A DNA stretch of 64,000 bases from Methylotenera sp. (lineage in GTDB: Bacteria > Pseudomonadota > Gammaproteobacteria > Burkholderiales > Methylophilaceae): positions 1-64,000 of the forward strand of contig JAHRYP010000010.1 in NCBI GenBank assembly GCA_020622105.1, read 5' to 3'. Positions 3,970 to 56,259 of this stretch are shown one piece after another. Made by a program: the position numbers and the translations under genes. Below the pieces are notes generated by a model. That model had not been told where the DNA came from, did not search any database, and was given only the letters and a program-made list of their open reading frames with translations. Numbering within the stretch: position 1 is the stretch's first letter; each line of letters opens with the position of its first letter.

Positions 3970-3985
3970 TGTAATATATCGCACA
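3970..3985. promoter_or_regulatory. Weak half-conserved copy of the TGTKCG-N4-CGMACA palindrome
   Basis: TGTAAT-ATAT-CGCACA: the right half is perfect and the left keeps only TGT. A TATAAG hexamer follows at 4005-4010. It could serve either divergent gene. Confidence 0.35.
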
Positions 3986-4029
3986 CACATCACGTTATTT
4001 AAACTATAAGAGTAAGTATCTGTTTTGTA

Positions 4030-4045
4030 TGTGTGTTACCGAACA
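4030..4045 (+). promoter_or_regulatory. Putative Crp/Fnr-type operator with -10
   Basis: TGTGTG-TTAC-CGAACA differs from the consensus TGTKCG-N4-CGMACA at one position. TAAAAT (4068-4073) is centred 33 bp from the palindrome centre, as in class II activation. It lies about 100 bp upstream of the start at 4149. Confidence 0.5.
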
Positions 4046-4148
4046 GACGATAGTGCTTTGAATAAAATAAAATGAATTTGCTGGTAGCTATGGAAACATA
4101 AAGCTAAGAGCCTTGGCTGCTAAATAGTAGTCAATCTGGAGGTAGAAA

Positions 4149-5261
4149 ATGCAGAAAATTCGTTATTTATTCATAGCGCTAGGCATGTTGCTTAGCTCAG
4201 TAAGCACCGCTGGCGTTAATGTGGGAATTGGCATCGGCTTACCTAATGTCAACATCGGTATTAATTTTCCAGTATATCCTGAGCTTGTCGTTGTACCCGG
4301 CTACCCGGTTTATTACGCGCCCAGACAACAGGCAAACTTATTCTTTTATGACGGTCTTTATTGGGTATATCAGGATGATTACTGGTATGCCAGCTCATGG
4401 TACAACGGACCTTGGTCGATTGTAGAGCCAGAGTTTGTTCCAGTATTTATATTGCGCGTTCCTGTGCGCTACTACCGCCATCCACCTGCTTATTTTGCAG
4501 GCTGGCGTTATGACTCTGCACCACGTTGGGGTGATCATTGGGGGCAGGGTTGGAATCAGCGCAGAAGTGGCTGGGATAGGTGGGATCGCCATTCAGCGCC
4601 TCAGCCTGCACCGCCGCCGACTTACCAAAGGAAGTATTCCGGTGACCGCTATCCTCAGCAAATCGAGCAGCAGCATGAGCTTCATCAGAATAACTATCGT
4701 TATCAACCACGTGATCCGGTAGTAAAGCAACATTATAAAGAGCAGGCTGAGCCTAGGGGATCTTCGCAGCAAGAGCGGCAACGTATGCGCGATGAGCCAA
4801 ACAATAGAAGGCAAGACAATCAAGGTTCAGGAGCACCTAATCGAGATTACGACACACCGCAACGATCTGAAGAGCAGCCGAGACGTGACAGAGATGCTCA
4901 ACAGTCATCACCAGACTTACCGCAGCAATCACGTCCGGAAGATCAGGATCAAAGGCCTCAGCAACCTGGATTAGAACCGCGTGGGCAGCAGGGTACTTCA
5001 GCGCCCGATCGGCGAGATGGTAATCCAGGCAGAGATCAGCCATATGAGATTCGCACGCAGCCTCAGCAACAGAATAATAGTGGCAATATGCAAAGGCCAG
5101 ATCGGCCGACATCGCAACAAGGCCGCCCGGAGTCTCAGAGTAGACAGCAACCGGATAGGCAGCAACAGCAGCCGCGATCACAGCAACCCCAGGGAAAAAG
5201 CATCGCCAATGAACCTGACCGCAGGCAAGAGCAAGAGAGACGCAGTAATCGCTATGATTAA
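4149..5261 (+). CDS. Secreted YxWxD-type protein with Gln/Arg-rich tail
   Basis: This is a 370-residue protein with a cleavable signal peptide (about residues 1-21, ending VSTAG). A compact aromatic-rich region (about 55-150) repeats Tyr/Trp motifs such as FFYDGLYWVYQDDYWYASSW; this kind of domain is common in proteobacterial secreted proteins of unknown function. Residues 150-370 are low-complexity Gln, Arg, Pro and Asp and probably disordered. The ribosome site TGGAGG is strong. The next gene (5352) has a similar signal sequence and a charged tail. Function is unknown. A surface or matrix role is inferred from composition and from the operator upstream. Confidence 0.7.
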   Translation: MQKIRYLFIALGMLLSSVSTAGVNVGIGIGLPNVNIGINFPVYPELVVVPGYPVYYAPRQQANLFFYDGLYWVYQDDYWYASSWYNGPWSIVEPEFVPVFILRVPVRYYRHPPAYFAGWRYDSAPRWGDHWGQGWNQRRSGWDRWDRHSAPQPAPPPTYQRKYSGDRYPQQIEQQHELHQNNYRYQPRDPVVKQHYKEQAEPRGSSQQERQRMRDEPNNRRQDNQGSGAPNRDYDTPQRSEEQPRRDRDAQQSSPDLPQQSRPEDQDQRPQQPGLEPRGQQGTSAPDRRDGNPGRDQPYEIRTQPQQQNNSGNMQRPDRPTSQQGRPESQSRQQPDRQQQQPRSQQPQGKSIANEPDRRQEQERRSNRYD

Positions 5262-5351
5262 TAAATTGTTTGTCATGACCATTATTTAGCAAGTTCAATT
5301 TGATAATTGTTTATCAGATTAAGTATAAGTATTCACCATTAGGAGATTTAC

Positions 5352-5819
5352 ATGAAACGTTTTTTAATCGCACTTGCAGTTGCAACAATGAGTGCTTCGG
5401 CTATAGCTGCCGATGTAGGGGTGTCGGTCAGCATAGGTCAGCCTGGATATTATGGCCGTATTGATATCGGTAACGCATACCCTCAACCACAAGTTATTTA
5501 CGCGCAGCCTAGAGTCATCATACAAAGTCCTCAAATACATGAGCCTGTATATATGCGCGTGCCGCCAGGACATCGCAAGAACTGGAAGAAGCATTGTCGC
5601 CAATATGGCGCCTGTGGCGAACGCGTTTATTTTGTGCAGGATAACTGGTATCAGCGCGATTATGCACCACGTTACCAGCAGCAGCATCGCGATAGGCATG
5701 ATGGACAGAATCAACATCGTGGCGATGATCGCAGAGATGATCACCGCGGCGGCAATGATGGCAGAGACGACCATGGCGGTAGCAAGCATGGTAATAACCA
5801 AGGTAATGGGCATCGTTAA
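5352..5819 (+). CDS. Secreted protein with His/Asp/Gly-rich tail
   Basis: This is a 155-residue protein. A signal peptide (about 1-20, ASAIAA) is followed by DVGVSVSIGQPG and a middle region with PPGHRKNWKKHCRQYGACGE, which has two cysteines seven residues apart. The final 50 residues are almost all His, Asp, Arg, Gly and Asn. The short PPGHxKxWxKHC stretch recurs in small secreted betaproteobacterial proteins of unknown function. The start is set by TAGGAG 8 nt upstream. It lies 90 bp after the gene at 4149 and is probably co-transcribed, with a terminator at 5900. Metal binding by the tail is possible but unproven. Confidence 0.7.
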   Translation: MKRFLIALAVATMSASAIAADVGVSVSIGQPGYYGRIDIGNAYPQPQVIYAQPRVIIQSPQIHEPVYMRVPPGHRKNWKKHCRQYGACGERVYFVQDNWYQRDYAPRYQQQHRDRHDGQNQHRGDDRRDDHRGGNDGRDDHGGSKHGNNQGNGHR

Positions 5820-5899
5820 CTAACAATCATTTTAATGTGTCGATTTTCGTCTAAAGAAATATACACATTAAAAATGTTTTATTTTAAATAATGATTAAT

Positions 5900-5931
5900 G
5901 CTCTGTTCGTTACAGAACAGAGCGTTTTTTT
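5900..5931 (+). terminator. Rho-independent terminator overlapping a palindrome copy
   Basis: The stem GCTCTGTTC / GAACAGAGC with a 6-nt loop is followed by seven T. It ends the 4149-5819 unit. Its core, TGTTCG-TTAC-AGAACA (5904-5919), also matches the window's operator consensus with one mismatch. Confidence 0.85.
5904..5919 (+). promoter_or_regulatory. Palindrome copy inside terminator, upstream of BON gene
   Basis: TGTTCG-TTAC-AGAACA has one mismatch to the consensus. CATTAT (5941-5946) is centred exactly 32 bp away, and the BON gene starts 120 bp downstream. The same bases form the terminator stem, so either or both roles are possible. Confidence 0.4.
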
Positions 5932-6038
5932 AAATAGGTTCATTATGTATACAACGTTGTGTGTGTACATAGTTAGCCAGCAATCCAATCGTAATAACTG
6001 ATTTTGCTGAAAATTTTAATTGATATGGAGATAGCACT

Positions 6039-6380
6039 ATGAAATACACTAAACACATCCCTAAACTAATTCTTGCTGGCGTTCTGATGGCAACATTAGG
6101 TTGTGCCGCAAACAGCCAGAAAGACAATACAACAACCTCTAATCGTGAAAAAGCTGGTGATTATATTGATGATGCTGTGATTACAACAAAAGTTAAAGCT
6201 GCAATTCTTAAAGAACCTATCTTAAAGTCTTATGAAGTGAATGTTGAAACCTACAAAGGCGTAGTGCAGTTAAGCGGCTTTGTTGGCACACAAGCGGAAG
6301 TAATCAAAGCCGCTGGACTTGCAAGCAGCGTAAAAGGCGTAGTTTCAGTTAAAAATGACTTACGCGTTAAAGCTAACTAG
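6039..6380 (+). CDS. BON-domain lipoprotein (copy 1)
   Basis: This is a 113-residue protein. The signal ends in lipobox LGC (Cys about 22), followed by a short linker and one BON domain (about 45-112: DDAVITTKVKAAIL ... GVVQLSGFV ... VKGVVSVKNDL). BON domains bind phospholipid surfaces and occur in OsmY-type stress proteins. It is closely similar to the gene at 10395, including the GDYIDDAVITTKVKAAIL segment and the same length. Each copy is followed by a tiny membrane protein gene, so the pair is a duplicated module. The ribosome site is ATGGAG. Confidence 0.85.
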   Translation: MKYTKHIPKLILAGVLMATLGCAANSQKDNTTTSNREKAGDYIDDAVITTKVKAAILKEPILKSYEVNVETYKGVVQLSGFVGTQAEVIKAAGLASSVKGVVSVKNDLRVKAN

Positions 6381-7329: not shown

Positions 7330-8055
7330 TTAATTAACGATGCCGTGAAGTGCTGGTAGCAGACGATCCATCTCATCTTTAACTACCTGGTAGCATTCGC
7401 AGCTTTTTGCTTCCAGGCCTTTTCGATCCAGTACCTTGATAATGCCACGGCTATAACTAATCAAGCCCATATTTTGCAAAGTTCCTGCAGCTTCTGTCAC
7501 GCTTTCACGCCGCACACCCAGCATATTGGCAATCAGTTCCTGAGTCATATTCAAATCATTGCTGGATAAGCGATCAATGCTTAACAAGAGCCAGCGACAT
7601 AACTGCTGTTGTAAGGAATGGTGGCGGTTGCAAACCGCAGTTTGTGACATTTGAGTAATCAGTGCCTGCGTGTAACGTAGTAACAGGCGTTGCAATGGCC
7701 CGCCGTTTGCAACTTCATTTCTTAAAATCTGTGCTTTCATGCGGTAACCGTACCCAGCACTTTGTACCACAGCTTGGCTAGGCGTCGTGTCCCCACCTAG
7801 CAAAATTTGAACACCAAACATGCCTTCATTGCCTACTAAAGCAATTTCTGCTGAAGCGCCGTTTTCCATGGCATAAAGGATAGACACGATAGAGGTAGTA
7901 GGGAAGTACACGTGACTTAAACGATCACCGGATTCACATAAAACTTTACCAAGCGGCATTTCTACCAGCTCTAGATTAGGGTATAACCGGTCGTAATCAA
8001 CTTTAAGTAATACATCAAGTAATTGGTTTAAATGAGGGCTTTGTATTTTTTCCAT
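7330..8055 (-). CDS. Crp/Fnr-like regulator (paralogue 1)
   Basis: This is a 241-residue protein with an N-terminal cyclic-nucleotide-binding-like beta barrel (about 20-130) and a C-terminal winged helix (about 165-225). The recognition helix reads GVRRESVTEAAG. It keeps the Arg-Glu pair that in E. coli CRP contacts TGTGA, but has Glu in place of the last Arg. The barrel lacks the RSA motif that binds cAMP phosphate (here TTPSQAVVQSAG), so cAMP is unlikely to be the ligand. Cysteines at TAVCNRHH, QQLCRW and the C-terminal SCECYQVV are shared with the paralogues at 32916 and 44056. No palindrome copy was seen in front of it. Confidence 0.85.
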   Translation of the reverse strand: MEKIQSPHLNQLLDVLLKVDYDRLYPNLELVEMPLGKVLCESGDRLSHVYFPTTSIVSILYAMENGASAEIALVGNEGMFGVQILLGGDTTPSQAVVQSAGYGYRMKAQILRNEVANGGPLQRLLLRYTQALITQMSQTAVCNRHHSLQQQLCRWLLLSIDRLSSNDLNMTQELIANMLGVRRESVTEAAGTLQNMGLISYSRGIIKVLDRKGLEAKSCECYQVVKDEMDRLLPALHGIVN

Positions 8056-8502
8056 GAGAGATTGGCCGATCTATACTAAATGTCAATTTTACGGAAAAAT
8101 AAATTTTCCAATCACAATTTTGAGATACTACACAGTATTTCAGCTATTGAATAAGAATATTCAATGATAGGCATATGTAATATAGATAGTGGTTTGAGAA
8201 TGAAGTGCAGAAGCGCAACATTATGATGCCGAAAATTACATGGAATTATCGTGAACAGATCTAAAAAGTTCTTTGACCATGCCCAATAATTTTTAATCAA
8301 TCTATCCAAAAAATTAAGCAGCCAATTTCTCCCTGACCCAATCTCATAGACATTATCGAGTGAATGTAGATTTAAATTCACACTATGTTAGGTAGCGCAC
8401 AGTGGATTATTAATGATGTGCGTATGATCCACAAAAGTTAATGTTTGCTTAACACAAATGTTAAAAAGTAATTTCAACACTAAAAAGTTAGGGTAAAAAT
8501 AA
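8056..8502. other. Intergenic region upstream of OmpA-family gene
   Basis: This 447-bp AT-rich region lies between divergent genes. The only long frame in it (8112-8381, minus) has no ribosome site or recognisable motif and was not accepted. It holds the operator copy at 8386 and TATGAT at 8423. Confidence 0.55.
8386..8401 (+). promoter_or_regulatory. Putative Crp/Fnr-type operator with -10
   Basis: TGTTAG-GTAG-CGCACA has one mismatch to TGTKCG-N4-CGMACA. TATGAT (8423-8428, 5/6 to the sigma-70 -10) is centred exactly 32 bp downstream. It lies about 100 bp before the OmpA-family start. Confidence 0.55.
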
Positions 8503-9621
8503 ATGAGAGTAAAAATCATCAAGACTGCAGTCGCAGCAACATTGGCTTTAGTCAGCCTTGCTTCATCTGCAGAAGACATGTACCGTGGTTCATGGTATGT
8601 TTTGCCAGGCGTAAGCATGATTGACACGGACGATGATCTGGAAGCAGAACATGGCCGTGGTGCTTTTCTTAAATTTGGTAAAGAAATTTCTCAAAACTGG
8701 GATCTTCAAGGTGGCATCGGTTATAACAATGCTAGTGAAGATACCGGCATGCCTGGCATTGGTGGACATTACAAACAAACCACATTAGGTTTGGATGCTT
8801 TATACATGTTTAGCCGTGACAAATTCCGTCCATTCTTACTTGCTGGTTTAGGCGTAGCAAGAAACAATGTAGATTACAACAGTAACGACGGTTTAGAAGT
8901 GAATGCTAAAAAGACATCATATATGGCCAATGTAGGTATTGGTGCTCAATATTTGTTTAATGATTCTTTTGGCTTGCAAGCTGATTTGCGTCATCAATTG
9001 AGCCGCGCAAGAACTACTACTGACCACGGTGTAGTTGATAAAGACACACAAACAATCGGTAACAATATTTTGAGTATCGGTGGTATCTTCCGCTTCGGTG
9101 CACCAGCACCAATGCCAGTGATTGCACAAGAGCCTGAGCGCGTTGCAGAGGCTGCTCCAGCACCTGCTCCAGAGCCAACTCCAGCTCCGGCACCTGTTGT
9201 TGCTGAACCATGCAAACCTACATTTGAGACTGTAACACTTTCAGTTGAGAAACTATTTGCTTTCAATAACCCTAACATGCCAGCCGGTGCTAAACCAGTT
9301 CTGGATGATATTGCTCAGAAATTAAAAGCAAATCCAGAATTCAAACTGGTAATGATTACAGGCCATACAGACCGTATCGGTAGTACTGAGTACAACCAAA
9401 AACTGTCAGAAAAACGTGCTAATGACGTGAAAGATTACCTGGTTTCTCAAGGTGTTGACGCGAGCCGTTTACAAGTAGTAGGTAAAGGTGAATCAGAGCC
9501 TGTAGTTGCTTGTGATGGTGTTAAAAGCAGAAAAGCGTTGATCGAATGTCTGCAGCCTAATCGCAGAGTTGTAATTTCAGATCAAGAGCAACATGAAGTT
9601 AAAGGTGCAACTTGTAATTAA
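8503..9621 (+). CDS. OmpA-family outer membrane protein
   Basis: This is a 372-residue protein. A signal peptide (1-23, ASSAED) is followed by an 8-strand-type beta-barrel region (about 25-205) with alternating aromatic and glycine residues. Next come a Pro/Ala hinge (about 206-238, APAPAPEPTPAPAP) and a C-terminal OmpA peptidoglycan-binding domain (about 245-360: TGHTDRIGSTEYNQKLSEKR ... VVGKGESEP). The domain order is that of classical OmpA, which tethers the outer membrane to peptidoglycan. Two cysteines (ACDG ... IECL) in the C-terminal domain could form a disulfide, as in some OmpA relatives. It is monocistronic, with a near-perfect terminator at 9648. Confidence 0.93.
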   Translation: MRVKIIKTAVAATLALVSLASSAEDMYRGSWYVLPGVSMIDTDDDLEAEHGRGAFLKFGKEISQNWDLQGGIGYNNASEDTGMPGIGGHYKQTTLGLDALYMFSRDKFRPFLLAGLGVARNNVDYNSNDGLEVNAKKTSYMANVGIGAQYLFNDSFGLQADLRHQLSRARTTTDHGVVDKDTQTIGNNILSIGGIFRFGAPAPMPVIAQEPERVAEAAPAPAPEPTPAPAPVVAEPCKPTFETVTLSVEKLFAFNNPNMPAGAKPVLDDIAQKLKANPEFKLVMITGHTDRIGSTEYNQKLSEKRANDVKDYLVSQGVDASRLQVVGKGESEPVVACDGVKSRKALIECLQPNRRVVISDQEQHEVKGATCN

Positions 9622-9750: not shown

Positions 9751-9766
9751 TGTTTGCTAGCGAACA
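9751..9766 (+). promoter_or_regulatory. Putative Crp/Fnr-type operator with -10
   Basis: TGTTTG-CTAG-CGAACA has one mismatch to the consensus. TATCCT (9788-9793) is centred 32 bp away. It lies 65 bp before the TTG start at 9831, which supports that start over the upstream GTG. Confidence 0.5.
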
Positions 9767-10975: not shown

Positions 10976-11998
10976 TTATGCTATCGCGAGTTCCGGATAA
11001 ATCATGGCTGTATTATCCTGCCAGTACCATGCATCTGCGCACATCTGGGTAATGGTTCTCTTCGCTTCCCAACCCATCAAATTGCGTGCTAAATTGATAT
11101 CTGCATAGCATTGGGCAATATCGCCGGGACGCCTTGCCACTACTTTATAAGGCACTGGTTTGCCGCTTACCTTGGCAAAGGTGTTCACCATTTCCAGCAC
11201 GCTGTGACCCGTACCCGTACCTAGATTGACCGTCAATACGCCAGCATGTGTAGCTAAGTAATCCATTGCTGCAATATGCCCCAAGGCAAGATCAACGACA
11301 TGGATATAATCGCGCACGCCAGTGCCATCATGTGTTGAGTAATCATCACCAAATATCGAAAGCTCTGATAATCTGCGCGCGGCGACTTGTGTAAGAAAAG
11401 GCATGAGATTGTTAGGGATACCATTAGGATCTTCACCAATCAGCCCTGATGGATGTGCACCGACAGGATTGAAATAGCGCAGTAGCGCAATATGCCAGCG
11501 CGGATCAGACTTATGCGCGTCTCTAAGGATATCCTCAATCATGAGTTTTGAGCGGCCGTAAGGATTGGTGGCTGATAACGGAAAGTCTTCCTGTATTGGT
11601 ACAGTATGCGGATCACCATATACCGTAGCAGAAGAAGAGAATACCAGATTGAAGACATTAAATTTCACCATGGTATCAAATAGCACCAGGCTGCCAGCTA
11701 CGTTATTATCGTAATATTTGAGCGGGTTACTGACGGATTCGCCGACAGCTTTGAGGCCGGCAAAATGGATGACAGCATCAAAATTATATTTCTGGAATAA
11801 TGCGTGTAACGCCTCTTGGTTGCGTATGTCCAGCTCTTGGAACCCAGGGCGTCGACCTACGATACGCTGAATGCGATCAAGTACCGATGATTTGCTGTTA
11901 CAGTAATTGTCGACAATAAATACATCGTGTCCTGCCTCCATCAACTCGACTACAGTATGAGAGCCTATATAGCCAGTTCCACCAGTCACTAATATCAT
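10976..11998 (-). CDS. galE: UDP-glucose 4-epimerase
   Basis: This is a 340-residue short-chain dehydrogenase-type epimerase interconverting UDP-glucose and UDP-galactose. The N-terminal NAD-binding motif GGTGYIGSH is present, as is the catalytic YxxxK (YGRSK, about 148-152) with Ser/Thr just upstream (SSSATVYG). The frame extends to 12031, but AGGAGG lies 6 nt before ATG 11998, which also gives the usual family N-terminus MILVTGGTG. It is the last gene of the EPS cluster but is separated from the upstream gene by 123 bp with its own perfect operator at 12088, so it can probably be transcribed separately. It supplies UDP-galactose for EPS. Confidence 0.95.
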   Translation of the reverse strand: MILVTGGTGYIGSHTVVELMEAGHDVFIVDNYCNSKSSVLDRIQRIVGRRPGFQELDIRNQEALHALFQKYNFDAVIHFAGLKAVGESVSNPLKYYDNNVAGSLVLFDTMVKFNVFNLVFSSSATVYGDPHTVPIQEDFPLSATNPYGRSKLMIEDILRDAHKSDPRWHIALLRYFNPVGAHPSGLIGEDPNGIPNNLMPFLTQVAARRLSELSIFGDDYSTHDGTGVRDYIHVVDLALGHIAAMDYLATHAGVLTVNLGTGTGHSVLEMVNTFAKVSGKPVPYKVVARRPGDIAQCYADINLARNLMGWEAKRTITQMCADAWYWQDNTAMIYPELAIA

Positions 11999-12087
11999 CT
12001 TATGCCTCCTAGATTGAATGTAAGTCAGCAACGTGAAATTGCGCTGATTACGATAAGATGATTGTCGTGTTAGCTTAGCGATTTAAC

Positions 12088-12103
12088 TGTTCGCTATCGC
12101 ACA
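12088..12103 (-). promoter_or_regulatory. Exact TGTKCG-N4-CGMACA operator before galE
   Basis: TGTTCG-CTAT-CGCACA is an exact match. On the minus strand GACAAT (12066-12061) is centred 32 bp downstream. It lies 90 bp before the galE start. Confidence 0.65.
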
Positions 12104-32732: not shown

Positions 32733-32748
32733 TGTTCGCTACCGCACA
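32733..32748 (-). promoter_or_regulatory. Exact operator before the EPS operon (epsD)
   Basis: TGTTCG-CTAC-CGCACA is an exact match. On the minus strand TAAAAC (32711-32706) is centred 32 bp downstream. It lies 50 bp before the epsD start and 49 bp (centre to centre) from the operator at 32782. Confidence 0.68.
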
Positions 32749-32781: not shown

Positions 32782-32797
32782 TGTGCGCTAGCGCACA
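32782..32797 (+). promoter_or_regulatory. Exact, perfectly palindromic operator before crp-manC
   Basis: TGTGCG-CTAG-CGCACA is a perfect 16-bp palindrome. On the plus strand GATAAT (32818-32823, 5/6) is centred 31 bp downstream. It lies 118 bp before the start of the regulator at 32916, suggesting autoregulation. Confidence 0.7.
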
Positions 32798-32915: not shown

Positions 32916-33713
32916 ATGGCTATCCCTGTTATTTCTGATAATCAGAATCCCAGGCAGAACGATATTCTTGCCGCTCTGCCGCTACATGATTACCAAAGAT
33001 TGTTGCCTGATCTCGAGTTTGTCCCTATGCCTTTAGGCTGGGCTTTGTATGAAGCCGGCCAGAAGCTCACGCATGCTTATTTCCCTACAACCAGCATCGT
33101 TTCTCTGCTTTATGTCATGGAAAACGGCTCATCCGCAGAGATTGCGGTGACGGGTTATGACGGACTGGTTGGCATTTCACTTTTTATGGGTGGCAACACT
33201 ACACCCAGCCGCGCCGTTGTGCAGAGCGCTGGGTTTGGTTACCGGCTTAAAGCTTCAGCCTTAAAGCGCGAGTTTAAACTTGGAGGAAAACTTCAAGAGT
33301 TATCCTTGAGTTTTACCCAGGCGCTTATTACACAAATGGCACAGACCGCGGTGTGTAATCGACATCATTCAGTAGATCAGCAATTATGCCGCTGGCTGCT
33401 GCTGAGTCTGGATAGGCTGCCTTCCAATCAGTTGAAAATGACACAAGAACTAATCGCCAACATGTTAGGTGTACGTCGTGAGGGCGTAACAGAAGCTGCC
33501 GGAAAATTACAGACTGAAGGCATTATCAGATATAGCCGAGGGCTAATTGTAGTGCTTGATCGACCACGCCTTGAAAAGCGCGTATGCGAATGTTATGCCG
33601 TGGTAAAAAAAGAGTTTGACCGTCTTTTACCGCATAAGCATGTACACGGAAATATTGCTGCGCCCACTTCAAATGATAGGCGATTAAATATGTACGTTAT
33701 GGAGCAATCATGA
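32916..33713 (+). CDS. Crp/Fnr-like regulator (paralogue 2) next to EPS operon
   Basis: This is a 265-residue protein with the same architecture as paralogue 1: a beta barrel (about 35-150) with YFPTTSIVSLLYVMENGSS and no cAMP-type RSA motif (NTTPSRAVVQSAG), then a winged helix with recognition helix GVRREGVTEAAG. The shared cysteines (TAVCNRHH, QQLCRW, VCECY) are present. The ribosome site AAAGGA precedes the ATG. Its gene overlaps manC by 4 bp, so the regulator and GDP-mannose synthesis are made together. The position between the divergent EPS operon and manC makes it the best candidate activator of the palindrome. Confidence 0.87.
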   Translation: MAIPVISDNQNPRQNDILAALPLHDYQRLLPDLEFVPMPLGWALYEAGQKLTHAYFPTTSIVSLLYVMENGSSAEIAVTGYDGLVGISLFMGGNTTPSRAVVQSAGFGYRLKASALKREFKLGGKLQELSLSFTQALITQMAQTAVCNRHHSVDQQLCRWLLLSLDRLPSNQLKMTQELIANMLGVRREGVTEAAGKLQTEGIIRYSRGLIVVLDRPRLEKRVCECYAVVKKEFDRLLPHKHVHGNIAAPTSNDRRLNMYVMEQS

Positions 33714-41684: not shown

Positions 41685-41700
41685 TGTGCGCTTACGAACA
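41685..41700 (-). promoter_or_regulatory. Exact operator before sugar transferase
   Basis: TGTGCG-CTTA-CGAACA is an exact match, 78 bp before the start at 41607 (minus). No good -10 hexamer is seen at the 32-bp distance here (best TACCTT), unlike the other sites. Confidence 0.6.
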
Positions 41701-41788: not shown

Positions 41789-42403
41789 TTACGCGAAGTT
41801 CATACCAGAACCACCCTGTGGGAACAGGTCAGATGCACCTTTGGCAAGGCGACGTCTGCCGATAAAGCCGATCAAGCCGAGGCCTGCCAGCATCATGGCA
41901 TAAGTTTCCGGTTCAGGCACCACAGCTGCAGTATTAGCTGAATACAAATACACGCCACCATTGCTACCTACTGCATCACCGGCAACCGCCCAGTAATAAG
42001 AGCCAGCTGATGCATTGTTATAGGCTAATACGCCTGTACTGTCACCAAAGCCTGCAGTGGCAATTTCTGTATTAACACCCGCTGCGCCATCGCCATCCGG
42101 ATCACTGAATAATGACAGCGTACCGTTGTTGATTTCGTAGCTAGAACCTACACCACCTAAACCTGGGAACAGTAAGGAAACAGCACTGGAAATAGTGTCG
42201 CTGGCTGAAGTCAGGTTAAAGGTGAATACATCATAGAAGCTTTGCACATCGTGCGTAACGCTGTAGATGTTTTCATCAGTAGGGTTTGTACCAAGATCGT
42301 AAGGAAAGTCGCCGCCGGTCAGGCTGATAGTAGCTGCCTGCGCAGAACTGACGGCACTGGCGAGGGCAATTGTGAGTAACGCTTTTTTCATATTGAGTTT
42401 CAT
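41789..42403 (-). CDS. PEP-CTERM protein 1
   Basis: This is a 204-residue protein. A signal peptide (about 1-23, SSAQAA) is followed by a beta-rich middle part containing FYDVFTFNLTSASDT, and a PEP-CTERM tail: VPEPETYAMMLAGLGLIGF then basic GRRR. It is a probable exosortase B substrate. Unusually, 18-19 more residues (ending GGSGMNFA) follow the basic cluster, where most family members stop within a few. ATG 42403 is chosen because GGAGT lies 6 nt upstream; a TTG four codons earlier would include the ribosome site itself. Confidence 0.88.
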   Translation of the reverse strand: MKLNMKKALLTIALASAVSSAQAATISLTGGDFPYDLGTNPTDENIYSVTHDVQSFYDVFTFNLTSASDTISSAVSLLFPGLGGVGSSYEINNGTLSLFSDPDGDGAAGVNTEIATAGFGDSTGVLAYNNASAGSYYWAVAGDAVGSNGGVYLYSANTAAVVPEPETYAMMLAGLGLIGFIGRRRLAKGASDLFPQGGSGMNFA

Positions 42404-42783
42404 ATTGGACTCCAATTAAATTTAATAACCTAGGAATGAATTTAGATTTAAAATGTACGTTCTTTACAAGAGTTTGTTATCAGATTCAACACGAATGCTG
42501 CTTCTACAAAACTTTTTACATCTCAAATCCATTTTCACTTTAGGCATATTAACTTTTGCCATTTGCCGCCATCTGTGCGGATAAGCACATATAAAGAAAA
42601 TCTACGATGTATATTCTGTATGCTTTCAGAATCGAGTTCGATTAAACATAATTAGAGACTTATAAGATTAACTGATGTAACATAAAGTTATATTAAATTA
42701 CAAACTCGCCTTATTTAAGGCCTAGTATTTAAGGTGTAGTATCCAGAGATTAGCATTCTCGGCAATTTATAATGGGGGTAGTA
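42404..42783. other. Intergenic region between PEP-CTERM gene and epsL
   Basis: This roughly 380-bp AT-rich divergent promoter region holds one operator copy (42574). A perfect TATAAT (42768-42773) just precedes the leader ORF. I see no sigma-54 -24/-12 element and no ORF. Confidence 0.55.
42574..42589. promoter_or_regulatory. Putative operator shared by PEP-CTERM gene and epsL
   Basis: TGTGCG-GATA-AGCACA has one mismatch. On the plus strand TATATT (42610-42615) is centred 31 bp away; on the minus strand TAATAT (42551-42546) is 33 bp away. It could serve both directions. Confidence 0.5.
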
Positions 42784-42819
42784 ATGAATGTTTCATATTT
42801 AAGAGCGGCACAACAATGA
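42784..42819 (+). CDS. Possible 11-codon leader ORF coupled to epsL
   Basis: ATG 42784 has GGGGGT 5 nt upstream and reads MNVSYLRAAQQ. Its TGA overlaps the epsL ATG (ATGA). It could couple translation of epsL. It is short enough to be chance. Confidence 0.35.
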   Translation: MNVSYLRAAQQ

Positions 42820-44036
42820 TAAAAATACGCCTTAAGTCTCACAGCATCGTTATTCAGGCACTAGTTACGGTTTCTCTATCAGCCCCAGCATGGGCTGATG
42901 AACAGGATGCCCTGAATTTTTCAGCAGGTGCGGCAGTGATGTTTGATGACAACCTGTTTCGCTTGCCTGATTCGGAAAAGTCCGATCGGATACTGACCAC
43001 AAATGCAGGCATTAAAATCGACAAACCTTATGCATTGCAACGCTTTCAGGTGGATGCCAATGTAGTCGACAATCGTTACGATTCTTACAGTTACCTTGAT
43101 TACACCGCCTTTAATTATCGGGCAGCCTGGCTATGGCAGCTAACCCCTAATATCAAAGGTACTATATCCGCTGATCAGAAACAGGTGCTGAATAGTTTTG
43201 CTGATTTTCTTGGATTCAATAATCAATTAACTAGAACACGCAATATTCAAACGAATGAAAATCGCATTTTTGATGTGGACGCGTTAATTGGCGGAGGCTG
43301 GCACTTGCTAGGCGGCGTGTCTGAGTTACGTTCACGCAACAGCGTTACTTTTGATGCGGTAGGTGATTTTATACAAGCTGGGGCAAATATCGGTATTAAA
43401 TACGTAGCGCCCTCTGAGAACTCAATTGCGCTCGTACAGCGAGCATATAATGGCGATTACCAAGGACGTGTTTTAGATGTGGCTAACCAGTTTGATACCG
43501 GCTTCAGGCAACGTGAAACTGAGGCGCAACTGCAATGGCGTTTGACGGGCAAGTCTTTAATTGATGCAAGGTTGGGCTATGTCGACCGTGAGCATGACAA
43601 TTTCTCATCTCGCGACTATGATGGTGCAACTGGCAGGCTTGCTTATAACTGGCAGCCAACAGGCAAGCTGGCTATTACCACCTCATTAGCGCGTAATATT
43701 TACAGCTTTCAGCAGGCGTTTAACAGTTATTACGTGGCAGACACATTTGCCATTAGTCCAACTTGGCATGTCACGGCTAAAACCAGCTTAAATCTGCGTT
43801 ATGACTTCAGTCATCGTGATTATCGCGGCGCTATTGACCCGCTTGCGGAGCACAGAAAAGACAATGTGCAATCACTCATGCTTTCGGCAGACTGGAAGCC
43901 TTTGCGCACGGTAACTGTAACGGGTGCCTTGCGTCATGAAATGCGGAGCTCGTCTTTTGATAATGCCAATTCCGTTAACGGTGACTTGGAATATGACGCC
44001 AACTCAGCGACAATCAGCGCACAGCTGTTGTTCTAG
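42816..44036 (+). CDS. epsL: EpsL-type outer-membrane beta-barrel protein
   Basis: This is a 406-residue protein with a signal peptide (about 1-27, SAPAWADE) and a predicted beta-barrel of alternating aromatic/polar strands ending in a Phe (ISAQLLF), the usual C-terminal signature for outer-membrane insertion. It matches the XrtB-associated outer-membrane protein EpsL (FSAGAAVMFDDNLFRLPDSE). It probably completes EPS export across the outer membrane. It stands alone, convergent with the regulator at 44056 with only 19 bp between. Confidence 0.88.
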   Translation: MIKIRLKSHSIVIQALVTVSLSAPAWADEQDALNFSAGAAVMFDDNLFRLPDSEKSDRILTTNAGIKIDKPYALQRFQVDANVVDNRYDSYSYLDYTAFNYRAAWLWQLTPNIKGTISADQKQVLNSFADFLGFNNQLTRTRNIQTNENRIFDVDALIGGGWHLLGGVSELRSRNSVTFDAVGDFIQAGANIGIKYVAPSENSIALVQRAYNGDYQGRVLDVANQFDTGFRQRETEAQLQWRLTGKSLIDARLGYVDREHDNFSSRDYDGATGRLAYNWQPTGKLAITTSLARNIYSFQQAFNSYYVADTFAISPTWHVTAKTSLNLRYDFSHRDYRGAIDPLAEHRKDNVQSLMLSADWKPLRTVTVTGALRHEMRSSSFDNANSVNGDLEYDANSATISAQLLF

Positions 44037-44055: not shown

Positions 44056-44769
44056 TTAACGGTACTGATTGAGTAAACGATCAAATTCATTTTTGACGAC
44101 TTGGTAGCACTCGCAACTGTGTGTTTCCAATTTTGTTCGATCTAGTACCGTGATATGTCCGCGTTGGTAGTGGATCGCTCCCAAGCGCTGTAACTTGCCA
44201 GCTGCTTCCGTCACAGTTTCTCTGCGCACACCGAGCATATTGGCTATCAGTTCTTGTGTAACTAGCAGCTCATTAGATTCAAGCCGATCCAGACTCAATA
44301 ATAGCCACCTGCAAAACTGTTGTTCCAGCGAGTGGTGGCGATTGCAAACAGCAGTTTGCGCCATTAGCGTAATTAATGCCTGGGTATAGCGCAATAACAG
44401 CTGCGTCATGGACCCGCTCAGGCTAAATTCCTTTTTTAGGAACTTGGTTTTGAGTCGGTAGCCAGACCCCGCATTCTGCACCACTGCTCGATTCATGCTG
44501 GTTTTACCACTCATAAACATTGAAACACCGACTATGCCCTCATTGCCAACCATGGCAATTTCGGCTGACGCACCGCTTTCCAGTATACAGAGCAGGGATA
44601 CAATGGACGTAACAGGGAAATATACATATTTTAACTCTTCGCCAGCTTCATAAAGTACCTGTCCTAAATGCATGTCTACAGGCTCAAGATTAATCGATAA
44701 TCGATTGAGTGCTTCGTCACTGAGTGCGCCTAGCAGCCTATTGCTTGGAGAGGTTTCTACTTTTGACAT
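44056..44769 (-). CDS. Crp/Fnr-like regulator (paralogue 3)
   Basis: This is a 237-residue protein. The barrel (about 20-125: YFPVTSIVSLLCILESGAS) lacks the cAMP RSA motif (KTSMNRAVVQNAG). The recognition helix GVRRETVTEAAG keeps the Arg-Glu pair. It shares the cysteines of paralogues 1 and 2 (TAVCNRHH, QQFCRW, SCECYQVVK). It is convergent with epsL and about 220 bp downstream of the GGDEF/EAL gene on the same strand. No operator copy lies between it and that gene. Confidence 0.85.
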   Translation of the reverse strand: MSKVETSPSNRLLGALSDEALNRLSINLEPVDMHLGQVLYEAGEELKYVYFPVTSIVSLLCILESGASAEIAMVGNEGIVGVSMFMSGKTSMNRAVVQNAGSGYRLKTKFLKKEFSLSGSMTQLLLRYTQALITLMAQTAVCNRHHSLEQQFCRWLLLSLDRLESNELLVTQELIANMLGVRRETVTEAAGKLQRLGAIHYQRGHITVLDRTKLETHSCECYQVVKNEFDRLLNQYR

Positions 44770-47122: not shown

Positions 47123-47138
47123 TGTGCCTTAACGAACA
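47123..47138 (-). promoter_or_regulatory. Putative operator just before the GGDEF/EAL gene
   Basis: TGTGCC-TTAA-CGAACA has one mismatch. It lies only 18 bp before ATG 47105, too close for a class II promoter, so it may act as a repressor site or serve with 47189. Confidence 0.4.
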
Positions 47139-47188: not shown

Positions 47189-47204
47189 TGTACGGTAACG
47201 TACG
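47189..47204. promoter_or_regulatory. Putative operator upstream of collagen-like lipoprotein
   Basis: TGTACG-GTAA-CGTACG is near-palindromic and has the right layout with some mismatches. TAATAT (47226-47231) is centred 32 bp away on the plus strand. Confidence 0.4.
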
Positions 47205-47619: not shown

Positions 47620-49617
47620 TTACTTGACCACAAAAGTCATGGTCTGCTTACCCAGGTTATTTTTATCATCAATTGCTGAAATGTAAATTGAATGCGTGCC
47701 AATTCTGGCGCCAGTTGAATTCCATGTATATGAAATGACATCGCTGCTGGAGCGAGCCATTGAAATGCCATCTACATTGATGCTCATCTGCTTGACTCTT
47801 ACATTGTCAGTGGCTTTTGCCATAATAGTCAGTGAAGAGCCTTTAGTGATGACTGTACTAACTGACGGTGAATAAACGCTGATGATAGGTGGAATAGTGT
47901 CGCGTGTAGCTGAAACGGCGGTAGTAACCTGCTCAAAAGCGCCTAGATCGAAGGCCGTGCCATTAGGACGTGGTGCATTGTCATAAGCATAACTGAGATT
48001 GCCAATTGATAAGCCGCTATCGATTGTTGTACTGGTAGATGCCACTGCATAACTTTTAGCCGTAGTAGGTTTGACGAGTGAAATAAAGCGCGAATCAGCA
48101 CTCATGCTATGCACATCCATCTTGGTTGCAGTAGAGAAACTGCCAAGCGTGTAATAAAGGCTACCGGAACTTAATTGAATAGCACTGCCGGGGCGAAAGT
48201 AGTTATTGTAGTCACTAATGTTGCCGCTAATGGTTGTCCCATTTGCAACCGCCATAAATAGATCATACTTACTAGTGCCATGACTGATAATATTATTCAG
48301 AATTGAATTGCCTGTCAGTGTTGCGCCAGTGCGCGGCATGCCGCCAACTTCAATGCCAGAGTAGCCGCTAGTGCCAACTATCGTATTGTTATAAACCTGC
48401 GTATTATCTGAAGCAGATATATAGATACCTCGTCGTTGATTGTTAGCCAGGATATTATTGTATATACGTCCGTTTTTACTGACCTCAAAGTAAATTGCAG
48501 CGTCTAACGGTCCATTATCGTGTATGTAGTTGTTGCGGATAGTAATGAGGTTGCCACTATTCGCATAATCGAACCAGATGCCAGAACCATTATTTAAACC
48601 AACTTCACTGTACTCTACTGTGCCATAGGCTTTAGTGGTTGCCTTTAAGCCGCCTGCATGCCAAAACGCATTAAAATTTCGCGTATTGTTATTATTCATT
48701 CTCAGGTTAAACACTTTAAAGTTGTAGCTACCGGGAGCACTCACGCCAGAGTTTCCATTGTTACTGACATTGCAGTCAATCGCTTGCGCTCCTGTTTTCA
48801 AATAGCCCATACTTAAGCCGGCAAAATCAGTGTATTGAATGTCCGACATCTCGATAATTGAATTAGAGCTTAATTCAACCGCTGCGCCCATTTTTGCATG
48901 TGCAGAAGTGTTACTATGCCTGAATGCGAAACCCTTAAGGTGTATATACGGAACAGCCATATAAAACAGACGTTGGCGTGTGCTGGCTTCAACCATTCTG
49001 ACATTCGGGTCAGCACCATCCGCTAGCCATACATACAAGGTTTTATTTAAGGCATCATAATAAAAACTGCCGGGTGTCATACTGCTAACGCTGCTGCCGA
49101 CCGGTTTCGGATACTCGAAAGTAGTGTAAAGCGCAGGCAACCCAATTTGCTGCAATGAAGGGCTATCACCACCACCAACGAACACTTGCTGGCTATTGTA
49201 TGCCCAGTTGGTTCTTTTCCAGATATTGCCGCTGTGTAAGGTCCAGCCAGTGACATGGTCTGAACCTCTGATAATTGGCACTTCTTTTTCGTAGGCCAAG
49301 ACATGCAACATTTTATCGGGCCCGCTGCCGCCTCCACGATAAGCATCAACCTGTTCGCGGTAAACGCCACCTCGCACATATATCGTGTCGCCGGCGACCG
49401 CTGTATCCATGGATTTTTGTATCGTTTTGAATGGTGTGTTTAAACTCGTACCGCTGTTCGTGTTGCTACCTTTGGTATCAACATAATAAGTTGTCGCCCA
49501 ACTGAGGGTGCTACATGAGAAAAACAATATGACGCTAAACAACAATTGCTGTTTTGATTTTAATACTAATTGAGTAATTTTAAATGCATTTGTAACTAAA
49601 ACGAGTAGATAGATCAA
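47620..49617 (-). CDS. Secreted beta-helix protein with Ig-like C-terminal domain
   Basis: This is a 665-residue protein using a TTG start with AAGGAG 8 nt upstream. A signal sequence (about 18-41, SCSTLSWA) is followed by TTYYVDTKGSNTNSGTS and FKTIQKSMDTAVAGDTIYV, the start of a right-handed beta-helix (about 45-520). A C-terminal Ig-like domain (about 565-665: PPIISVYSPSVSTVITKGSS) ends it. It is homologous over the helix to the protein at 14186 but adds the Ig-like domain. It may bind or cut polysaccharide. No PEP-CTERM tail is present. Confidence 0.82.
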   Translation of the reverse strand: MIYLLVLVTNAFKITQLVLKSKQQLLFSVILFFSCSTLSWATTYYVDTKGSNTNSGTSLNTPFKTIQKSMDTAVAGDTIYVRGGVYREQVDAYRGGGSGPDKMLHVLAYEKEVPIIRGSDHVTGWTLHSGNIWKRTNWAYNSQQVFVGGGDSPSLQQIGLPALYTTFEYPKPVGSSVSSMTPGSFYYDALNKTLYVWLADGADPNVRMVEASTRQRLFYMAVPYIHLKGFAFRHSNTSAHAKMGAAVELSSNSIIEMSDIQYTDFAGLSMGYLKTGAQAIDCNVSNNGNSGVSAPGSYNFKVFNLRMNNNNTRNFNAFWHAGGLKATTKAYGTVEYSEVGLNNGSGIWFDYANSGNLITIRNNYIHDNGPLDAAIYFEVSKNGRIYNNILANNQRRGIYISASDNTQVYNNTIVGTSGYSGIEVGGMPRTGATLTGNSILNNIISHGTSKYDLFMAVANGTTISGNISDYNNYFRPGSAIQLSSGSLYYTLGSFSTATKMDVHSMSADSRFISLVKPTTAKSYAVASTSTTIDSGLSIGNLSYAYDNAPRPNGTAFDLGAFEQVTTAVSATRDTIPPIISVYSPSVSTVITKGSSLTIMAKATDNVRVKQMSINVDGISMARSSSDVISYTWNSTGARIGTHSIYISAIDDKNNLGKQTMTFVVK

Positions 49618-50310
49618 GGTCAGAGCTCCTTAGAATTAAGGGCTTTGCCAACAATAGGACCAGTGTGACCAGATTATTTTGACAGCCAGACAGCAGCTAT
49701 TAAGCTACGTGGCCAGTAGAAATTCATCCTATTTTTTGAACTTTTTGATGTTTTTTACTAATGCAATCTGAAGCCGGTAATCCCGCTGTCATGGCATAAG
49801 CCTGTAGACCGGTAATTTTGCGTCCTTACCTTACGATAAGTTTGCCTTTTGCAACTTCAACAACAGACGCACTATATATACTTATTTTCATAAACACAAT
49901 CAATTTTTTTAAAAATATTCAATATATTCATGTAGTTATATGTAATCTACCGAACATATATGCAATAAAATTCAATGAAATCAATGTCTGTCATGTTGGA
50001 GCATGAACGAATTATTTTGAAACCTGAGATACATATTTTGTAATCCCGGATGCTTCTTTATGCAGCGCTATTATTGGTTTATGCCTACTCAAGCTACTAC
50101 GTTTGTTTGCAGTTAATCATCTTAAGTGCCTTAACGTACGGACTAGACATCTGGCTTCCAGTTATTTTGTTGCATTACTCACAAACGATATTTACCAATA
50201 GTTTTAGGTATGGTGACTTCGTGTATGGCGACTTTAGGCATGGGGATCCCATTCCACAACTAATATTTGCAGCTTAACGTTTGTTTCATCAAACATCACG
50301 GGAGGGTATT
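49618..50310. other. Intergenic region, no convincing gene
   Basis: About 690 bp. A 75-codon frame (50050-50277) lacks a ribosome site and reads like chance hydrophobic sequence. A partial repeat (TATGGTGACTT / TATGGCGACTT) lies near 50210-50235. One weak operator copy is at 49941. Confidence 0.5.
49941..49956. promoter_or_regulatory. Weak operator copy
   Basis: TGTAAT-CTAC-CGAACA: the right half and the CTAC spacer match; the left half keeps only TGT. It is distant from both flanking starts (about 325 bp from 49617 and 355 bp from 50311). Confidence 0.35.
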
Positions 50311-51054
50311 TTGCCTACTCAAGCTTTTTATTTTGTAAATCATCTATTGGCTGACCTTCCCAGCAAAGAGTATGAAACTTTAATCAATAAATCTGAGCAG
50401 ATTCAACTCAAATACGCTGAAGTAATTACTAAACGTGATGATCCAATTGATTACGTGTACTTTCCTATTGATAGTATTATTTCTTTGGTTGCCCCGGTTG
50501 AAGAGAGCAGGGGAATGGAAGTTACCATGATCGGTAACGAGGGCATGCTTGGCATTACACTCATGCTCGGTGTTAACGATACGCCATTTAGCGCGCAGGT
50601 ACGAAAAGCAGGCGCTGCAATTCGCATCGCCGCGCCTGAATTCTTGAGTCTTCTTGAACATAGCCCTCTACTAAAAGAAAACATGAACAGTTATCTATGT
50701 GTTTCATTTAGCCAGCTGGTGCAAGCGGCAATTTGTAATCGTTTCCACTTTGTAGAAGAACGTCTTGCACGCTTGTTGCTCATGATTAGAGACCGCGCTC
50801 ATTCAACGTCCTTTTACATTACTCAGGATTTGCTCGCACATATGCTTGGTGTACGTCGTGTTGGTGTCACTAAAGCCGCGCTTGCGCTACAGCACAAAAA
50901 CCTGATTGGATATAGCAGGGGATACGTAGTAATTCACCATGTACAAGGTCTGGAAGACGAAGCCTGCACGTGCTATAAAACTGACAAAGAGACTTATAAT
51001 CGTATGCTGAATAAAATTAACTTTGAGCTTACGGCTAAATCTGTCACCAATTAA
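50311..51054 (+). CDS. Crp/Fnr-like regulator (paralogue 4, divergent)
   Basis: This is a 247-residue protein from TTG 50311 (GGGAGGG just upstream; TTG 50281 is less likely). It has the same barrel plus winged-helix layout, but the recognition helix reads GVRRVGVTKAAL, so the Arg-Glu pair of the other three is broken (Glu to Val). It shares AAICNRFH and the C-terminal ACTCY, but not QQLCRW. It may therefore recognise a different site. It lies 2 bp before the phosphomannomutase gene, an arrangement like that of the paralogue-2/manC pair. Confidence 0.83.
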   Translation: MPTQAFYFVNHLLADLPSKEYETLINKSEQIQLKYAEVITKRDDPIDYVYFPIDSIISLVAPVEESRGMEVTMIGNEGMLGITLMLGVNDTPFSAQVRKAGAAIRIAAPEFLSLLEHSPLLKENMNSYLCVSFSQLVQAAICNRFHFVEERLARLLLMIRDRAHSTSFYITQDLLAHMLGVRRVGVTKAALALQHKNLIGYSRGYVVIHHVQGLEDEACTCYKTDKETYNRMLNKINFELTAKSVTN

Positions 51055-52624: not shown

Positions 52625-53200
52625 TTATTTTTTGGTTTTACGTCTTGCCGTAAAGCCAAGCATCCCTAGTCCTGCCAGCATCATGGCATAGGTCTCGGGC
52701 TCAGGTACCGGTGTTGCTGTGTACCAACCGCTACCGCCTTGTTCAGTTGTCAAACCCTGAACGTGTAAGGCAAATGAGTCTGAAGTTAATGTGACAGGCT
52801 GAGAAAAAGTAGCATCCCAGCTTACAGTTTCATTTGCAGTTAACCTTGTTTGTTGCGATCCTGTGAGGTCAAACCTGAAATCAAATATTCCGGTTGGTCC
52901 GCCACCATTGGCAACTGATACTACAGTATCACCGACTACATTTGAAATGGTAGGCTGGTATTCAGAATCTACAGCCACTGAACCGATAAAACTGCCATCC
53001 GTAAAAATGGCATCCAGATCAAAAGCGCTGAGGGTAAAACTGTAAACATTACCAATGTTGGTATAAGTCATGGAAGCGAAGGTAGTATCAGGCTGATAAG
53101 TGCCTGATAACAACTCGCCGTAAGTATCTACAGTGGCATTCGCTGAAAGGCTGGCTACTAATGCAGCGGACCCCAGCATATTTCGTACTAGTTTATTCAT
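52625..53200 (-). CDS. PEP-CTERM protein 2
   Basis: This is a 191-residue protein. A signal peptide (about 1-22, SANAT) is followed by a beta-rich domain and a canonical PEP-CTERM tail (VPEPETYAMMLAGLGMLGF followed by TARRKTKK). The tail is nearly identical to that of PEP-CTERM protein 1, but ends right after the basic residues. It is a likely exosortase B substrate, to be surface or matrix attached. The ribosome site is CGGAGAG. Confidence 0.9.
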   Translation of the reverse strand: MNKLVRNMLGSAALVASLSANATVDTYGELLSGTYQPDTTFASMTYTNIGNVYSFTLSAFDLDAIFTDGSFIGSVAVDSEYQPTISNVVGDTVVSVANGGGPTGIFDFRFDLTGSQQTRLTANETVSWDATFSQPVTLTSDSFALHVQGLTTEQGGSGWYTATPVPEPETYAMMLAGLGMLGFTARRKTKK

Positions 53201-53272: not shown

Positions 53273-53288
53273 TGTGCGGAATAGCTCA
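53273..53288 (-). promoter_or_regulatory. Operator-like site before PEP-CTERM 2
   Basis: TGTGCG-GAAT-AGCTCA has a perfect left half and a degenerate right half. On the minus strand TATAAA (53251-53246, 5/6) is centred exactly 32 bp away. Confidence 0.42.
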
Positions 53289-53383: not shown

Positions 53384-53399
53384 TGTGTGCTAGAGCACT
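53384..53399 (+). promoter_or_regulatory. Operator-like site before ferritin-like gene
   Basis: TGTGTG-CTAG-AGCACT has a CTAG spacer and three half-site mismatches. TATGCT (53421-53426) is centred 32 bp away, 105 bp before the start at 53504. Confidence 0.4.
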
Positions 53400-54938: not shown

Positions 54939-54982
54939 TACTAAACTCCTAGCCAGGTCAGGTTGTACTTTCAGGATTATGC

Positions 54983-55420
54983 TTAATTAGTGCCTGTTGT
55001 AGTGCCATTCACAGGACCATCTTTAGTAATGTCTACACTTCCGTTTTTACTTTTACCTGAGGTTGTGCCAATAGGCTTGTTGTTCATCGAGTTTTGATAG
55101 CTTACGCCGCCTTTTTCCGGTTTCATGCTGTCATACATTTTATCGTGATACAGCGTGTATTCAGCTTTGGATACCATGCCGTTGTTGTCTGTGTCCATCA
55201 GCTTCATTTCTTTATCACTGTGACTCATCATGCCGTTTTGTTTCAGGCTTTTATTGCTGACTTTTTTATCAATGATTTTATCTTGCTGTTTAATCTGTGT
55301 TGAGTCTGAAGTGCCTATTGCACTGCCATCATCAGTATTTTCTGTTGTAGTTGCTGCCGTAACCGCAAATGTGCTTGCGAAAACTGCTGTTGCTAATGTA
55401 TTAACAATAAACCTATTCAT
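54983..55420 (-). CDS. Secreted EF-hand protein
   Basis: This is a 145-residue protein with a signal peptide (about 1-23, TFAVTAAT), a charged middle part and one EF-hand-like calcium loop (about 75-88: [13 protein letters not shown]). The N- and C-terminal thirds are Thr/Ser/Gly-rich and probably disordered. It resembles the EF-hand part of the protein at 9831. Its function is unknown; calcium binding is plausible. The ribosome site is AGGAG. Confidence 0.75.
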
Positions 55421-55497
55421 GGTAGAACTCCTGATAGTTTACAAGTTGATTTAACTTATAAGACTAGGTACTTTAAATTTCTTGATTGCATAGCGTC

Positions 55498-55513
55498 TGT
55501 GCGTTGGCATACG
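55498..55513. promoter_or_regulatory. Weak operator-like site
   Basis: TGTGCG-TTGG-CATACG: the left half is perfect and the right is degenerate. TAAACT (55535-55540) is centred 32 bp away on the plus strand and TAAAGT (55475-55470) 33 bp away on the minus. Confidence 0.33.
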
Positions 55514-55594
55514 GAACAATATTTTTAATCGGTTTAAACTTAGTTCAGGAAAACGGAACAATCAAGTATCCGTTAAACCGTTAAGGAGATTGCC

Positions 55595-55753
55595 ATGAGC
55601 TTGGGAACGATATTATTGATTCTTTTAATCTTGATGCTGGTAGGCGCATTGCCAAGCTGGGGCCATAGCAGAAACTGGGGCTATGGACCAAGCGGTGGTA
55701 TAGGCCTGATTGTGCTCGTACTGATTATATTGGTAGTAATGGGAAAAATATAA
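55595..55753 (+). CDS. DUF3309 small membrane protein
   Basis: This encodes a 52-residue protein with two hydrophobic helices flanking LPSWGHSRNWGYGPSGG, the signature of DUF3309. AAGGAG precedes the ATG. It lies 132 bp before a hairpin terminator. Function is unknown; it may be an envelope stress protein. Confidence 0.8.
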   Translation: MSLGTILLILLILMLVGALPSWGHSRNWGYGPSGGIGLIVLVLIILVVMGKI

Positions 55754-55884
55754 TTCATAGCGACTATAGATCCGAACTTGAAGATCGCCAGCACAATCGG
55801 TGAAAGTTCATAGGCGGATGCTTTGATATTTCTCCTGGCAGCCAGCACTGGAGAAGTCAGGACTAAAATTTATGTATTCTAAAA

Positions 55885-55914
55885 ATAGGGTGTCAACAAA
55901 AGTTGATACCCTAT
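55885..55914 (+). terminator. Hairpin terminator
   Basis: ATAGGGTGTCAAC / GTTGATACCCTAT (13 bp with one G-T pair), 4-nt loop, followed by TTTATT. Confidence 0.8.
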
Positions 55915-56243
55915 TTTATTGTCATATTGCCGCTATTACTTGTCAGTAGCGGTTATGAATTAAACGTTTCAGTGGCAATTCAATGCACGGCGTACTCTTG
56001 AAAAAATATGACCATAGCTCCCGGAAATAATCACCATTAAATTCAAGTTAAACATTATAAATCTATTTTAATTTATTGATTATTTTAAATAAATTACTGT
56101 TGATATCGATAATGCTGCATCAATGTTAAGTAAGCATACCAAACGTTTACATAAGCGTGGTGAGCCCGTCTTATTTTAAACATCATGTTTTTTCATTGCT
56201 TTAATGCCTTCTATCAATAATGACAACGGTAACACAACCATTA

Positions 56244-56259
56244 TGTATGTCAGCGTACA
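56244..56259 (+). promoter_or_regulatory. Operator-like site before glucan synthase
   Basis: TGTATG-TCAG-CGTACA keeps TGT...ACA and CG but has variant positions. TATGGT (56281-56286) is centred exactly 32 bp away. Confidence 0.38.

Follow-up and report, generated by a model that had tools for sequence, protein, structure and literature searches.

The operator of Escherichia coli cyclic AMP (cAMP)-CRP is TGTGA-N6-TCACA, a 16-bp palindrome of 5-6-5 layout; CRP uses the class II position and opens its recognition helix with R and E. In the available portions of the literature, BerA of Burkholderia cenocepacia is a cyclic di-GMP (c-di-GMP)-responsive activator of exopolysaccharide (EPS) genes with binding shown for bcam1330 and bcam1331, and berA expression is driven by RpoN/BerB (PMC5552954). 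PEP-CTERM genes have been assigned to PrsK/PrsR sigma-54 control in a paper whose accessible text leaves further regulators and motifs of these systems to be found (Haft 2006, PMC1569441). Here we describe a palindrome in the first 64,000 nucleotides of contig JAHRYP010000010.1 of Methylotenera sp. (assembly GCA_020622105.1; this whole 64-kb stretch is the window). The initial annotation had taken it for an unrecognised operator with Crp/Fnr-like proteins as candidate regulators, which comparative evidence in silico supports. An unnamed Crp/Fnr-like clade (recognition helix LGVRREGVT) very probably uses this palindrome as its operator, which would serve class II activation of EPS and envelope-stress genes. 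Comparison of sequences supports the site, its link to the helix and its promoter geometry.

The pattern first reported, TGTKCG-N4-CGMACA, has its four exact copies in the window where they had been placed (Table 1); 100 dinucleotide shuffles average 0.02 copies and never exceed 1. The 2.5-Mb draft genome holds 6 exact copies, 4 of them in the window, and none of the pattern read backwards. At up to one mismatch the genome has 30 copies (12 on the window's contig) vs 16 for the reversed control, and for a 20-bp pattern at up to two mismatches 38 vs 15. The full motif spans about 20 bp, T-N-TGTDCG-NTAN-CGHACA-N-A, with CRP-type geometry; the half-site TGTKCG was borne out as a pattern and is refined to TGTDCG, A being allowed too.

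It is very unlikely that the weaker sites arose by chance and that function is confined to the exact ones. Plain mismatch counting would permit it: at up to two mismatches the consensus has 15 matches in the window, where shuffles average 9.4 and 6 of 100 reach 15, which is not significant, so such counts are no defence of the weaker sites. Against it stands a weight matrix made from 57 sites upstream of crp homologues, all in other genomes, with the site of the window's own crp1 excluded. This foreign matrix places the 17 sites of the initial annotation at ranks 1-17 of some 64,000 window positions, with scores from 26.2 down to 11.6; a new site at 50125 (score 10.5) comes 18th, and the following position scores 8.2. 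At a score of at least 12 the real matrix finds 16 window sites and twenty column-permuted palindromic matrices 0-3. The weaker sites moreover have a -10 hexamer at the same distance, as described below.

The genome encodes seven members of the crp1 family, four within the window (crp1 to crp4) and three elsewhere. Pfam HTH_Crp_2 scores above its cut-off in crp1-4, placing them in the CRP/FNR superfamily; cNMP_binding is above cut-off in crp2 and crp3 and below it in crp1 and crp4, and no NCBIfam model reached its cut-off in the five paralogues scanned. We compared crp upstream regions in two sets, one of 36 family loci (7 own and the 29 best-scoring from family genomes) and one of the best 80 of 588 confirmed relatives in named genomes, 78 of which have at least 100 bp upstream. 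A palindrome search given no pattern, over 400 bp upstream, returned TGTGCG (8), TGTACG (7) and TGTTCG (6) as the leading half-sites of the family set, the next having 3, and the same three in the 80 named loci (22, 13 and 11; next 4). The cAMP-CRP regulon was considered and rejected, since this search and the 57-site matrix both give TGTDCG and not TGTGA as the half-site. Allowing one mismatch, TGTDCGN4CGHACA lies upstream in 41 of the 78 usable named loci vs 1 of 78 for its reverse, and the pattern of the initial annotation in the upstream 400 bp of 14 of the 36 family loci, with 1 for the reversed pattern and none in a 400-bp stretch inside genes of the same loci. The motif thus recurs before homologous crp genes of beta- and gammaproteobacteria.

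Around the best 80 of 588 homologues we counted 223 sites at a score of at least 14 (permuted matrices: mean 1.8, maximum 5), and 149 of them lie outside the kilobase upstream of crp (mean 1.55, maximum 5). Exact sites in the 80 other loci fall at 37 per Mb inside open reading frames (ORFs) vs 274 per Mb between them (37 in 997 kb and 34 in 124 kb, by a simple ORF caller). Across 120 family genomes, TGTKCGNTANCGMACA occurs in 19 of the 42 that have a strong crp hit and in 4 of the other 78. Could a non-Crp regulator read the palindrome, with crp genes just frequent targets in the same islands? The four genomes that carry the pattern and lack a strong crp hit would fit this, as would crp genes that have no site, yet we consider it very unlikely: sites are densest immediately upstream of crp (0.96/kb vs 0.04-0.34 elsewhere within 7 kb, a peak partly built in because 40 training sites were drawn from the 80 loci), the geometry is the 5-6-5 of CRP, and the site is rare beside crp genes whose helix has changed.

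The recognition helix LGVRRE(G/S/T)VT is common to three window paralogues and two elsewhere in the genome. Of 114 upstream regions compared, we set aside 3 in which the helix was unread. Among the rest, a site scoring at least 12 precedes 67 of 91 LGVRREG genes vs 0 of 10 LGVRRSG genes (p = 7e-6); taking all helices together, genes with E have such a site in 68 of 96 cases and genes lacking E in 4 of 15 (p = 0.002). The exact 20-bp pattern has 53 copies, vs 1 reversed, in 38 genomes, which host 38 of the 80 named loci, with none in 17 of the 38; 4 of these copies are in the 11 genomes picked via LGVRRSG/RPG loci and 49 in the other 27. A changed operator was sought for the LGVRRSG group, and a CCGTCCG-like hint appears in a few loci, where it is not established. 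Changed recognition helices are found at 50281-51054 of the window (LGVRRVGVT) and at L034:12556-13287 (LGVTRESVN, the helix of the C45 paralogue); paralogues with either helix may bind altered operators.

The promoters have a consistent architecture. Of 58 crp promoters (one being that of crp1), 32 have a TATAAT-like hexamer at a distance of 18-24 bp beyond the operator, with a peak at 21-22 bp; in five control windows the count is 4-8 of 58. Among the 12 window promoters judged clear in direction, 10 have a -10 hexamer 20-23 bp past the operator and sixteen other 4-bp windows 0-3; the 6 window sites between divergent genes, read both ways, give 9 of 12 vs 0-5 elsewhere. If the hexamer is the -10 element, a gap of 21 bp places the centre of the operator at -41.5, a value computed from the hexamer position, which suggests the class II activator position.

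The same clade might instead bind the palindrome mainly as a promoter-blocking repressor. Operators near -41.5 cover the place of the -35 hexamer, and some are close to gene starts. We nevertheless judge repression unlikely: the hexamer spacing has its peak at 21 bp, a distance shared with class II activators; the nearest relative yet studied, BerA, acts as an activator in the accessible text of its description (PMC3584217); and where a divergent region holds two operators (five regions), the hexamer stands at 20-23 bp outward in 8 of 10 cases and inward in 4 of 10, a bias that fits activation. In the activator model a dimer would be seated with its centre near -41.5, replacing the -35 element, and would touch RNA polymerase in the class II manner; many of the clade's members appear to regulate their own gene. 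Several paralogues of this genome probably share sites and probably co-activate the XrtB-type EPS cluster, PEP-CTERM substrates, c-di-GMP enzymes and envelope-stress genes. Binding, activation and this sharing we infer from the comparisons above; c-di-GMP is a candidate ligand by analogy with BerA, the mark of BerA-like effectors being DNA binding that c-di-GMP enhances.

Several observations weigh against the assignment. No score-12 site was found for 28 of the 96 upstream regions of E-helix genes, including those of crp3 and the C39 and C41 paralogues. The LGVRRSG genes are one related group, so the link between operator and helix is phylogenetically clustered, and by mismatch counting 1 of the 10 does have a site within one mismatch. 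Two of the exact sites, 32733 and 41685, lack a -10 hexamer where the spacing predicts one. The 58 candidate sites for the matrix were picked with a widened form of the window's own pattern; 40 of the 58 are from the same 80 loci, one is that of crp1 itself, and there are three near-duplicate pairs. (Locus L068, of the same family, and Methylovorus mays, L122, have identical crp upstream sequence, which points to Methylophilaceae as the probable family.) The pattern is also present in four family genomes that lack a strong crp hit. The presence of crp is moreover confounded with genome size, and among genomes of at least 2.2 Mb the counts become 17 of 36 vs 3 of 23 (p = 0.01).

Table 1. Crp/Fnr-like genes and predicted operators of the window, with the operator pairs of Burkholderia loci. 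"Matrix" marks sites placed by the weight matrix.
Feature	Position	Strand	Remarks
crp1, Crp/Fnr-like regulator	32916..33713	+	helix LGVRREGVTEAAGKLQ; directly before manC; sites 32733, 32782 upstream
crp2, paralogue	7330..8055	-	65-66% identical to crp1; helix LGVRRESVT
crp3, paralogue	44056..44769	-	62-63% identical; helix LGVRRETVT
crp4, distant paralogue (33-36%)	50281..51054	+	helix LGVRRVGVT; sites 49941, 50125 upstream
Operator between PLD-family gene (2391-3806, -) and 4149-5261	3970..3985	.	matrix
Operator upstream of 4149-5261 (370 amino acids, without Pfam match)	4030..4045	+	matrix
Operator upstream of BON gene 6039-6380	5904..5919	+	matrix
Operator upstream of OmpA-family gene 8503-9621	8386..8401	+	matrix
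Operator upstream of BON/EF-hand gene	9751..9766	+	matrix; TTG 9831 start inferred
Operator upstream of galE-like epimerase (10976-12031)	12088..12103	-	exact site
Operator upstream of epsD	32733..32748	-	exact site; -10 hexamer not found at usual distance
Operator upstream of crp1-manC	32782..32797	+	perfect palindrome TGTGCGCTAGCGCACA; GATAAT 20 bp downstream
Operator upstream of initiating sugar transferase (40198-41622)	41685..41700	-	exact; -10 hexamer not found at usual distance
Operator between PEP-CTERM gene (41789-42415, -) and epsL (42816-44036, +)	42574..42589	.	matrix
Operator facing GGDEF-EAL gene	47123..47138	-	matrix
Operator facing collagen-like gene (47291)	47189..47204	+	matrix
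Operator between beta-helix gene (47620-49617, -) and crp4	49941..49956	.	matrix
Extra weaker operator upstream of crp4	50125..50140	+	matrix; absent from initial annotation
Operator upstream of PEP-CTERM gene 52625-53200	53273..53288	-	matrix
Operator upstream of ferritin-like gene 53504	53384..53399	+	matrix
Operator upstream of 52-amino-acid DUF3309 protein, start 55595	55498..55513	+	matrix
Operator upstream of ORF 56445-63998	56244..56259	+	matrix
Opposed operator pairs, Burkholderia	L268:16175/16257, L270:9610/9691, L271:1437/1501, L272:835/900

The earlier claim that the sites are only intergenic did not hold as worded: if the ORF of the target gene is taken at its greatest possible length, 9751, 32733 and 47123 each fall within it, at the 5' end. 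Later in-frame start codons are available in these ORFs, so the claim hinges on the choice of start. Sites 32733 and 32782 also lie inside a 106-amino-acid ORF (32716-33036) that overlaps crp1 in another frame and is probably not a real gene. Site 53384 has its best frame at 53382 by plain consensus and at 53384 by the matrix. Site 8386 is 331 bp from the start of the divergent crp2, and crp3, downstream of a same-strand GGDEF-EAL gene, lacks a site of its own directly upstream. Operators are paired in divergent intergenic regions, 49-184 bp apart, at 3970/4030, 32733/32782, 47123/47189, 49941/50125 and 53273/53384. Just past the window, on the same contig, an IS3-type transposase gene (L027:6241-7065) stands beside two operators.

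Sites in the window precede galE, epsD, the initiating sugar transferase gene, crp1-manC, epsL and the GGDEF-EAL gene, and also BON, OmpA-family, ferritin-like and DUF3309 genes and ORF 56445-63998, which has GH94/glucoamylase domains, resembles cyclic glucan synthases and extends past the window end. The initial names of the target genes agree with Pfam/NCBIfam for the genes scanned. Both PEP-CTERM genes detected in the genome have a site upstream (2/2). Outside the window, sites lie near diguanylate cyclase, RelA/SpoT, DUF883, PRC-barrel, HbpS-like and Pfam-less genes. In other genomes the targets are of the envelope or stress type, and the motif stands before BON, OmpA, CsbD, DUF883, fatty-acid desaturase, cyclopropane-synthase, PLD-family and GH94 glucan-synthase-like genes, GH94 proteins following sites in two loci. 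Raw counts, which cover site neighbours alone and do not measure enrichment, were fatty-acid desaturase 4, BON 4, DUF900 3 and CsbD 3 for 71 scanned of 75 selected neighbours, and, in an 88-neighbour set, HTH_Crp_2 9, fatty-acid desaturase 4, and 3 for each of OmpA, response regulator and PAS. Comparison in silico supports the initial idea of a shared regulon joining EPS, exosortase substrates and envelope stress, the regulon itself being a prediction. The EPS region also contains a fused chemotaxis-like signalling protein of 952 amino acids (36230-39088), with CheB, CheR and PAS/kinase matches below their cut-offs.

For genes now annotated as an unnamed "Crp/Fnr family", this would supply an operator with a readable sequence, together with a candidate regulator and the regulon predicted for it. 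A wider picture can be drawn tentatively, as rather more doubtful than probable: a large unnamed Crp-like clade, from Methylophilaceae to gammaproteobacteria, would have its own TGTDCG code and run an envelope and general-stress response; here it would have taken over exosortase/EPS from PrsR and sigma-54, with several paralogues of near-identical recognition helix competing for sites, and single helix changes (E to S) would retune or abolish the operator.

We found no description of this operator in the literature as accessible, including PMC1569441, PMC4195743, PMC5552954, PMC3584217, PMC12531629 and PMC9684580, most subscription papers being outside that scope. Like the cAMP-CRP operator, the motif is a 16-bp 5-6-5 palindrome at the predicted class II position, read by a predicted helix that opens with R and E; it differs in its fifth base, C instead of A, and in a loose fourth base (A/G/T). 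With the PrsK/PrsR system it has in common the promoters of PEP-CTERM genes in EPS clusters, but it is a CRP-type palindrome. In the Methylotenera genome, a 96% complete draft, none of 26 matches to PrsR exceeds the cut-off (best 406.2 vs 502.6 bits), so Crp-like proteins may stand in for PrsR. The palindrome and its predicted regulators are a candidate for the PEP-CTERM regulators and motifs that the accessible text of Haft (2006; PMC1569441) left to be found.

The closest studied protein to the crp1 clade is BerA, with only 39-45% identity to crp1; crp1 does not group with BerA (Bcam1349) as an ortholog, the two being separate in a small, weakly supported tree. No BerA operator sequence was found in the accessible literature on BerA. 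No match was made to the promoters with shown BerA binding in the Burkholderia strain examined, whose wza was not identified, and the best score upstream of its wzc-like gene is only 6.1. The BerA ortholog itself was recognised by an RpoN box that matches the published berA one exactly and begins 193 bp before the ATG, and its upstream intergenic region holds a site of score 23.1 (L270:19580). Near it, in four Burkholderia species, opposed site pairs each have a -10-like hexamer at 21 bp; they precede a small gene in 4/4 loci, and manC follows that gene in three; the fourth locus stops short of that point. Like the crp1 clade, the BerA ortholog is of the CRP/FNR family, has an EPS target and carries the clade's recognition helix, LGVRREGVTEAAG. 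For BerA, which has been studied as a regulator of biofilms, the comparison suggests an operator as well.

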